DNA from: an endosymbiont of Bathymodiolus septemdierum str. Myojin knoll
Lineage (GTDB): Bacteria; Pseudomonadota; Gammaproteobacteria; PS1; Pseudothioglobaceae
Length of the DNA: 64,000 nt
Direction: 5' to 3'
Assembly (NCBI RefSeq): GCF_001547755.1
Contig: NZ_AP013042.1
Coordinates: 186,001-250,000 of the forward strand
The notes beneath the pieces are model-generated. The model did not search any database. It was not told the DNA's origin and saw only the letters and a list, made by a program, of their open reading frames with translations. Positions 19,621 to 20,614 of the stretch are shown piece by piece (the first letter of the stretch is position 1; each line of letters begins with the position of its first letter). Both the position numbers and the translations under genes were made by a program.

Positions 19621-19925
19621 ATGAATGACATAGGATTACCAAGTAAAGATGAGGATGTAGAAAAGGCAGCTAAGGCGCTAAAAGCGATGACACACCCATT
19701 GCGCTTAAAGATTTTGTGTATATTAAAGAATAATTTGAAATCAGGAAACAAGCTGAGTCCTCGCAATCCAATGTTTCCCAGCATATTGATATTCTTAGAT
19801 CTAAAAATATTATTGAATCACGACGCGAAGGTAATAAAATATTGTGTAAAGTAAAAGATGAAAAAGTTTTGGCGCTAATCACCAATATACAAGCAACTTT
19901 TTGCGTTAAAAATAGTATAACTTGA
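19621..19925 (+). pseudogene. ArsR-family transcriptional regulator, frameshifted
   Basis: The frame opens as a typical ArsR repressor (AAKALKAMTHPLRLKILCIL) but leaves the family pattern after about residue 38. The rest of the winged helix is in another frame: SSQSNVSQHIDILRSKNIIE, REGNKILCKVKDEKVLALI, to a stop at 19923-19925. Between the two parts the sequence is also shorter than the family norm, so a small deletion as well as a frameshift is likely near 19735-19765. As written it would make a 77-residue peptide without a recognition helix. Confidence 0.8.
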
Positions 19926-19970
19926 ATAAAAATTATATTAGAATATCATTGTTTTCTAATATAATTTGTG

Positions 19971-19976
19971 TATAAT
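19971..19976 (+). promoter_or_regulatory. -10 box upstream of the secreted repeat-protein gene
   Basis: TATAAT in TGTGTATAATGC, the same 12-mer as upstream of the adhesin gene. A second partial -10 (ATATAAT at about 19959-19965) lies just before it. The transcript would have a leader of about 70 bases before ATG 20055, with a GGGAG ribosome-binding site. Confidence 0.55.
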
Positions 19977-20054
19977 GCGCATTTGTCAAGAAGGATATTT
20001 GGCGCAAACAAGGTGTATCAATAATGATGCATTAAAATTATTTGGGAGAATAAA

Positions 20055-20567
20055 ATGAAAAAAATTATCGCAATCACTGCTTTAGTGGCAGCTACTTCAG
20101 CTTCGGCTTTCTTTAACAATGGTTCTAACGGCAACAACTGGGATCCAATGAACGGTTCTAGTAACTGGGATCCAATGAACGGTTCTAGTAACTGGGGTCC
20201 AATGAACTCTGGTTCAAATTTTGGTCCTATGAATGGTGGTTCAAACTGGGGTCCTTTTAACGGTGGCAACAACTGGGGTCCTTTTAATGGTGGCTCAAAT
20301 GCTGGTCCTTTCAGCGGCTCTAATAACTGGGGTCCTTTCAAAGGCGGCAATAACTGGTTGAATGATACTGACTTCGGTATGAATTTCGATACTAAGAATA
20401 AGAACGACGCTCAAGCTGCTGGCATTGCTGATGCAACTGCTAAAGGTGCTGCTGATGCATTCGCTAAAGGTCAAGCTGACGGTTTTGCTAAGGCACAAGC
20501 AGATGCATACGCTAAAGGCTACGCTGATGCAATGGCTAAGGCTAAGGCAACAAACAATACTAAGTAA
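20055..20567 (+). CDS. Secreted NWGPxNGG-repeat protein, possible sulfur-globule envelope protein
   Basis: A clear signal peptide (MKKIIAITALVAATSASA, cut near residue 18). Residues about 25-100 are about ten units of the type NNWGPFNGG / SNWGPMNG / NNWDPMNG. Residues about 115-165 are a second repeat of the type 'AKGQADGFAKAQADAYAKG', rich in Ala, Lys and Asp and probably helical. Gly/Asn/aromatic repeats after a signal peptide resemble sulfur-globule envelope proteins of sulfur oxidisers, which fits the host type, but I cannot prove homology. It has its own promoter, good ribosome-binding site and strong terminator, as expected for an abundant protein. Confidence 0.75.
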   Translation: MKKIIAITALVAATSASAFFNNGSNGNNWDPMNGSSNWDPMNGSSNWGPMNSGSNFGPMNGGSNWGPFNGGNNWGPFNGGSNAGPFSGSNNWGPFKGGNNWLNDTDFGMNFDTKNKNDAQAAGIADATAKGAADAFAKGQADGFAKAQADAYAKGYADAMAKAKATNNTK

Positions 20568-20589: not shown

Positions 20590-20614
20590 AACCACCCTGC
20601 GGGGTGGTTTTTTT
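20590..20614 (+). terminator. Rho-independent terminator after the repeat-protein gene
   Basis: AACCACCC-TGCG-GGGTGGTT followed by a T-run; it lies about 23 bases past the stop codon. It ends transcription toward the convergent gene at 20641. Confidence 0.95.

Follow-up and report, generated by a model that had tools for sequence, protein, structure and literature searches.

We conclude that the gene at positions 20055 to 20567 of the window (the whole 64,000-nucleotide stretch that was analysed) probably encodes a structural protein of the periplasmic sulfur-globule envelope, one of four paralogues in a sulfur oxidiser of the SUP05 type; from the comparisons of gene and protein described here, we put the probability of this reading at roughly 0.8. 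SUP05-type bacteria are important carbon fixers of the dark ocean that draw on stored sulfur when crossing redox boundaries. In uncultured relatives, where Pfam gave nothing, sulfur storage would become recognisable from sequence through a coat protein that is found across the family and has an identifiable promoter.

Gene and protein

The gene and the signals that flank it are composed as follows (window coordinates).

19938 to 19963, plus strand: conserved promoter element TTAGAA-N10-TTCTAATATA, an inverted repeat around −35
19971 to 19976, plus strand: TATAAT (−10), 16 nt behind TTGTTT
20044 to 20049, plus strand: GGGAGA, ribosome-binding-site-like, read from the sequence
20055 to 20567, plus strand: sgp-like gene, 170 amino acids plus stop, ATG start, open reading frame bounds exact
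20055 to 20108, plus strand: signal-peptide-like start, residues 1 to 18 (MKKIIAITALVAATSASA), read from the sequence
20109 to 20348, plus strand: array of eight 9-residue NWGPxNGG-type units, proline spacing exactly 9, 80 residues
20349 to 20402, plus strand: linker NNWLNDTDFGMNFDTKNK, 18 residues, conserved in relatives and phage copies
20403 to 20564, plus strand: Ala/Lys/Asp tail, 54 residues, period 8, with a small residue every four and Asp and Lys alternating
20590 to 20614, plus strand: terminator-like hairpin and T-run, from folding and comparison of copies

Consistent with the initial annotation, which described a two-part protein with an aromatic/Gly/Asn array followed by an Ala/Lys part, both periods are real: identity at lag 9 is 0.65 in the array (0.16 expected) and identity at lag 8 is 0.59 in the C-terminal part (0.19 expected), and in neither case did any of 2,000 shuffles reach the observed value. 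The number of units had been put at about ten and has to be lowered to eight strict N[WFA][GD]P[MF] units, compared with at most two in any of 20,000 shuffled versions of the mature sequence; their prolines fall at residues 31, 40, 49, 58, 67, 76, 85 and 94, a spacing of nine seven times over. About ten tetrads of the form [G/A]-x-A-[D/K], with D and K taking turns, run through the tail. This second half had been thought unusual, but among 89 relatives chosen by their array and linker patterns it is common, 83 having at least four A[KDE][GA] motifs and the other six being of a different type; SgpD of Allochromatium is also predicted to be partly helical. A second type of relative retains the array and linker and has, in place of the Ala/Lys tail, a tail ending YGRQGFFGY...FPAP (L024:951-1556, L019:706-1308, L030:2188-2730 and L121:3561-4151); it often adjoins the helical type.

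The predicted cleavage point of the signal-like start, of the Sec type and judged by eye from the sequence, lies between ASA and FF, and an A/S-x-A-like site is present at the same place in 83/83 helical-type relatives, as identified by a simple pattern. The mature protein has a mass of 15.7 kDa and is hydrophilic (GRAVY −0.92; array alone −1.09), and cysteine is absent from it, as from all 83 complete relatives with at least four A[KDE][GA] motifs. AlphaFold, run with 36 sequences, gave a pLDDT of 43.8, an array without order and helices only at the signal and at residues 121 to 167, the latter at low confidence (block means up to 52); the tail is thus weakly predicted to be helical. The protein may self-assemble, as its composition suggests. 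No Pfam family was matched by the window protein, and a PDB profile search returned 0 matches. Likeness to Ala-Gly-Lys helices of the FliH and TolA type (NCBIfam) was confined to the tail, with E values of 0.008 and 1.6 and scores of 15 bits (cut-off 293) and 8 bits (cut-off 59), and was rejected as composition only. An open frame of 110 amino acids runs antisense across the array (window 20018 to 20350, minus strand) and is probably a by-product of the repeats.

Copies and distribution

The window's genome (1,469,434 bases in one contig) has four copies of the gene, namely the window's own and those at 683905, 723950 and 724626; a fifth match row overlaps the fourth copy, and the two were counted once. 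Copies 723950 and 724626 lie behind a gene read as isocitrate dehydrogenase (presumed icd). The four copies are under purifying selection (dN/dS 0.11–0.20 across six pairs). The nearest named relative of this genome is G005, taken as 'Ca. Thiodubiliella endoseptemdiera'. In one closed genome, two copies of equal score and with the same promoter site lie far apart (G012:C1:9116-9622 and 861266-861772), a pair that reads as a recent duplication or gene conversion.

Matches were found in 45 of the 95 genomes searched, every one within the window's family (45/60), and in none of 35 genomes representing 35 other families. The marker genes dsrA and soxB were sought in the 60 family genomes; a gene truncated at a contig end was scored as present, and a weak hit to another enzyme, well under the cut-off, did not count. 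Every one of the 45 carriers has at least one of the two markers, including one genome with soxB only (G051, 86% complete) and one with dsrA only (G047, 78% complete). Carriers therefore account for 45 of the 49 family genomes with either marker vs 0 of the 11 with neither (Fisher p 4e-9). The resemblance to sulfur-globule envelope proteins proposed in the initial annotation is supported by this distribution, and the occurrence in non-sulfur relatives that was to speak against it was seen in none of those 11 genomes. However, ten of the 11 belong to genus g3 and one to g9, so the pattern may go back to only two independent events. The other four of the 15 non-carriers (G008, G010, G015 and G025) have soxB, and three of them have a clear dsrA; that of G015 is only a 35-amino-acid piece at a contig edge. 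Contig ends break the gene in several carriers, so fragmentation of the assembly may also account for its not being found in G008 (520 contigs). SoxCD was considered as the cause of the missing gene in genus g5 and was rejected: there was no SoxC match in G015 or G025 (12 genomes, none above the cut-off).

A scan of named genomes yielded 64 loci with titles such as Thioglobus, SUP05 cluster, Thiodubiliella, Ruthia, Vesicomyosocius, Ruthturnera and Bathymodiolus symbionts; many are titled merely 'Gammaproteobacteria' or 'Proteobacteria bacterium', and one 'Piscirickettsiaceae'. The proposal that homologues might lie beside sox or dsr genes was not borne out for the bacterial copies: across the main copies of 14 single-contig genomes none is adjacent, the nearest lying 51,963 bases away, in the window's genome.

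Relation to published sulfur globule proteins

The closest published system is that of EF1, 'Ca. Thioglobus autotrophicus', a member of the same bacterial family in which cryo-tomography revealed periplasmic sulfur globules and for which "four putative" sgp genes, three of them with sulfur globule proteins (Sgp) in the proteome, were reported (Shah et al. 2019, PMC6509183); in the literature available on sulfur globule proteins of Thioglobus/SUP05, only this paper was found to concern SUP05 Sgp. Four genes of the window type are found in the EF1 genome (G031). One lies near 737 kb; the other three follow one another in a row that ends with a type-C relative and that lies next to the presumed icd, as a pair of copies in the window's genome does. 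Because the four window-type genes equal in number the four in print, we infer that they are the same genes, and the window protein has probably already appeared in print as a putative Sgp of a SUP05-specific family.

Sulfur globule proteins are described as having a signal peptide and regularly spaced prolines (PMC10386293, PMC7356093). The window protein is repetitive and has eight prolines exactly nine apart, and its distribution, in sulfur oxidisers and not in non-sulfur relatives, is that expected of such a protein, globule formation itself being known only for EF1. The available descriptions of SgpA, SgpB and SgpC of Allochromatium vinosum resemble the window protein in the Sec signal (a signal-like start in the latter), small size, repeats, spaced prolines and paralogues, and in that the A. 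vinosum sgp genes have their own promoter and terminator (PMC10386293). Those proteins are, however, described as extremely hydrophobic and of 11–13 kDa, whereas the mature window protein is larger and hydrophilic and has an Ala/Lys/Asp tail, a comparison made by description in which the measure of hydrophobicity may differ. SgpD of the same organism is exported, as is predicted for the window protein, and likewise repetitive and predicted to be partly helical; it co-localises with globules, but, again by description, it is reported almost only from Chromatiaceae and its helix is predicted with confidence, unlike that of the window protein.

Beyond the distribution and the four EF1 genes, the globule reading is favoured by the spaced prolines behind a signal-like start, by the gene's own promoter and terminator signals, by purifying selection between the four copies, by dsrA sharing a contig with 4 of 12 phage copies and by the presence of dsrA alongside the relatives in genus g113 (both described below). 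Against it stand the four soxB-bearing family genomes without the gene, the small number of independent events behind the distribution, the hydrophilic protein, the distance from sox and dsr, the lack of a match in any library family or solved structure, and the many dsrA-bearing genomes of the class that have no recognisable copy. Some of these points would also suit a periplasmic or surface structural protein, associated with amyloid, silk or an S-layer, that tracks the sulfur-oxidising lifestyle and does not coat sulfur: composition and repeats fit many self-assembling proteins, and neither the gene's location nor its GRAVY value points to sulfur. We consider such a protein improbable: none of the 11 family genomes that lack both dsrA and soxB has the gene, EF1 has as many copies as there are reported putative sgp genes, and dsrA accompanies the gene on a third of the phage contigs. 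A role in interaction with an animal host, suggested by loci titled Bathymodiolus symbionts, Ruthia and Vesicomyosocius, is very improbable, being weakened by the presence of the gene in EF1, a free-living isolate, as well as on phages and at loci that bear the titles SUP05 cluster and Thioglobus perditus/pontius.

As an envelope protein of sulfur globules, the product would be exported by Sec and its signal removed. One could then envision the uncharged Pro/aromatic/Gly/Asn array spreading and cross-packing over the nascent hydrophobic sulfur surface, while the tail, in which a small residue recurs at every fourth position and Lys takes turns with Asp at the same interval, would either pack sideways against other tails or give the coat a charged outer face. 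With no cysteine available, such a coat would not be fixed to sulfur chains through thiols. The promoter element and terminator, both present as sequence features, would make the gene its own transcription unit.

Expression signals and the promoter element

Strong expression signals of its own had also been claimed for the gene. Promoter, ribosome-binding-site-like and terminator-like sequences are indeed present, the first and last having been missed by a stock promoter/terminator scan and found through comparison of copies and folding, and hairpins likewise lie 3' of the remaining three copies in the window's genome. Codon usage is biased, but agrees with that of two ribosomal-protein genes within the window only in part: it does so for Asn AAC (58%; ribosomal 60%, background 26%) and Gly GGT (70%; ribosomal 64%, background 45%), while Ala GCT disagrees (63%; ribosomal 6% of 18 codons, background 26%).

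Aligned upstream regions give the consensus TATTAGAATATCATTGACTTCTAATATA, followed by seven bases and TATAAT. Six of 74 distinct upstream regions, including those of EF1 (L121) and Ruthia (L083), match it at 28/28 positions and that of the window at 26/28; many upstream regions of other copies lack the element (14–19/28). The 26-base core, with up to 3 mismatches allowed, occurs at 47 sites in 34 of the 60 family genomes, against 0 for a reversed-pattern control. All 34 genomes are sgp carriers, and the core is found in neither the other 11 carriers nor any of the 15 non-carriers. A family match follows 85–180 bases behind 38 of the 47 sites, and another 3 stand ahead of an sgp-like start that a contig end truncates, so that at least 41/47 stand before an sgp-like gene; of the rest, 3 are cut too early to tell and 3 are not ahead of such a gene. 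Within the window's genome, the element is found at 2 of the 4 copies, and these provide two of the three places with the exact arms TTAGAA-N10-TTCTAA; arms alone, with one mismatch, are no commoner there than the control (16 vs 21 per strand). Some of this conservation may simply reflect common ancestry. With its inverted repeat around −35, the element, which looks new, points to a dimeric regulator that presumably acts on it.

An ArsR-type regulator gene upstream of sgp (window 19621 to 19925) is split by a frame change. Its intact relatives resemble BigR (71 bits, cut-off 155) and match in 29 of 32 genomes searched, the three without a match (G013, G019 and G023) lacking dsrA and soxB; locus L190 has an intact relative of its own. 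The ArsR-like gene was rejected as a neighbour regulator: at the 4 loci that were inspected, the intact relatives are located away from sgp and next to a presumed lgt gene. The published descriptions of BigR, SoxR and HlyU, so far as available, contain no operator like the sgp element.

At two of the 3 sites that are not ahead of an sgp-like gene, the element stands before unrelated open reading frames with signal-like starts, at L171 (G042:C45) and L173 (G036:C18), which may be co-regulated with sulfur storage.

Phage copies

Shortened Sgp-like proteins are also encoded on phage genomes, an observation that looks new, since no phage-borne Sgp was found in the available sulfur-globule and phage literature, supplements aside. 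The bacterial profile hit 11 contigs of IMG/VR, and one more came from a mixed phage profile, for 12 distinct contigs (L191–L201 and L233); INPHARED phages gave no match. Three of the 12 have identical copies, and in L201 and L233 only truncated pieces are present. Eight distinct proteins are complete, at 108–137 residues; they retain the signal, between two and four units, the linker NNWxNDTDFGFNFNTKNK and then a YAKGY-type tail that is clipped, after which they continue into unrelated endings. Head, tail-tube, terminase or tail-chaperone genes are found on three of the five contigs examined, and PhoH with further phage-type genes on the other two.

L198: major head protein, tail tube, UvsY
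L207 (contig of L193): terminase small subunit, PhoH
L202 (contig of L196): tail assembly chaperone, PhoH
L195: PhoH, exonuclease, protease
L197: PhoH, methyltransferase

A dsrA gene is present on four of the 12 contigs, three of them near-copies, and on one it lies roughly 1 kb from the sgp-like gene; the gene order on 3300048641_000170 is sgp-like, outer-membrane-like open reading frame, dsrA (481 bits), TusA-like (below the cut-off), IscU and ErpA. Conversely, 1 of 24 dsrA-bearing viral loci, collected with one close query, shows an sgp-like gene in the flanking sequence retrieved. When 77 bacterial proteins and 8 phage proteins were placed in one tree, the phage copies appeared as two changes, and one origin is recovered in 38% of bootstrap trees; branches are long and the bootstrap is not settled.

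We consider the chances about even that SUP05-type phages use a miniature globule coat protein, together with phage DsrA and TusA, to alter sulfur storage or mobilisation in hosts whose main coat-gene type has a dedicated operator-like promoter element. If so, this would be a viral auxiliary gene acting on a storage organelle and not on an enzyme step, and viruses would influence how large the sulfur store is or how it is used, beyond their effects on sulfur enzymes. Phage sulfur genes described by Kieft et al. 2021 (PMC8190135) comprise dsrA, dsrC/tusE, soxC, soxD and soxYZ, and TusA and Fe-S genes are named there as common on phages; phage dsrA, TusA and Fe-S genes, and hosts taken as SUP05/Thioglobus, are shared with the contigs described here. 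The term 'sgp' is absent from the main text of that paper, in which the two mentions of sulfur globules concern host storage.

Alternatively, and somewhat less probably, the phage copies are no longer globule proteins and are exported for another use during infection, such as modification of the envelope with the neighbouring outer-membrane-like protein. Their reduced length, low number of units, clipped tail and unrelated ends would be in keeping with this, as would the missing host promoter element (16–18 of 26 positions match) and the outer-membrane-like frame close to most copies. Retention of signal, units and linker argues against such a change of use, as do the 55–61% identity of the L196 protein to the three bacterial proteins aligned with it, the dN/dS of 0.11–0.45 over 28 phage pairs (many with dS >1 and thus saturated), and the company of dsrA on a third of the contigs. 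The outer-membrane-protein-like frame itself, of 275–293 amino acids, lies beside or near the phage genes at L195:5441-6316, L196:5361-6236, L192:3874-4749, L194, L197, L199, L200 and L201, with a signal-like start and a C-terminal Phe in 8/8; family scans gave it no significant match, and tblastn gave none in the bacterial loci examined.

Relatives beyond the family

The family profile gave weak matches in 13 of 369 genomes of the class, 4 within the family and 9 among the 365 outside it. As 112 of the 369 pass the dsrA cut-off, most dsrA-bearing Gammaproteobacteria sampled lack a recognisable relative. Genus g113 aside, the weak matches shown were rejected as composition or unrelated frames (Met/Gly repeats, Ala/Gly-rich coils), and at one of them, L113, no open reading frame was found. 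The three genomes of genus g113 (G161, G277 and G376; loci L106, L131 and L136) share with the family the signal, an FW start, GPFGG and GWGAMDSM-like stretches and a linker-like stretch, and their proteins carry a Pro/Tyr/Gly-rich tail; one alignment included the G376 protein, so that its match to G376 is by construction. All three have dsrA (in pieces in G277), and their proteins are a possible bridge, as judged from these shared stretches, to the classical Sgp type.
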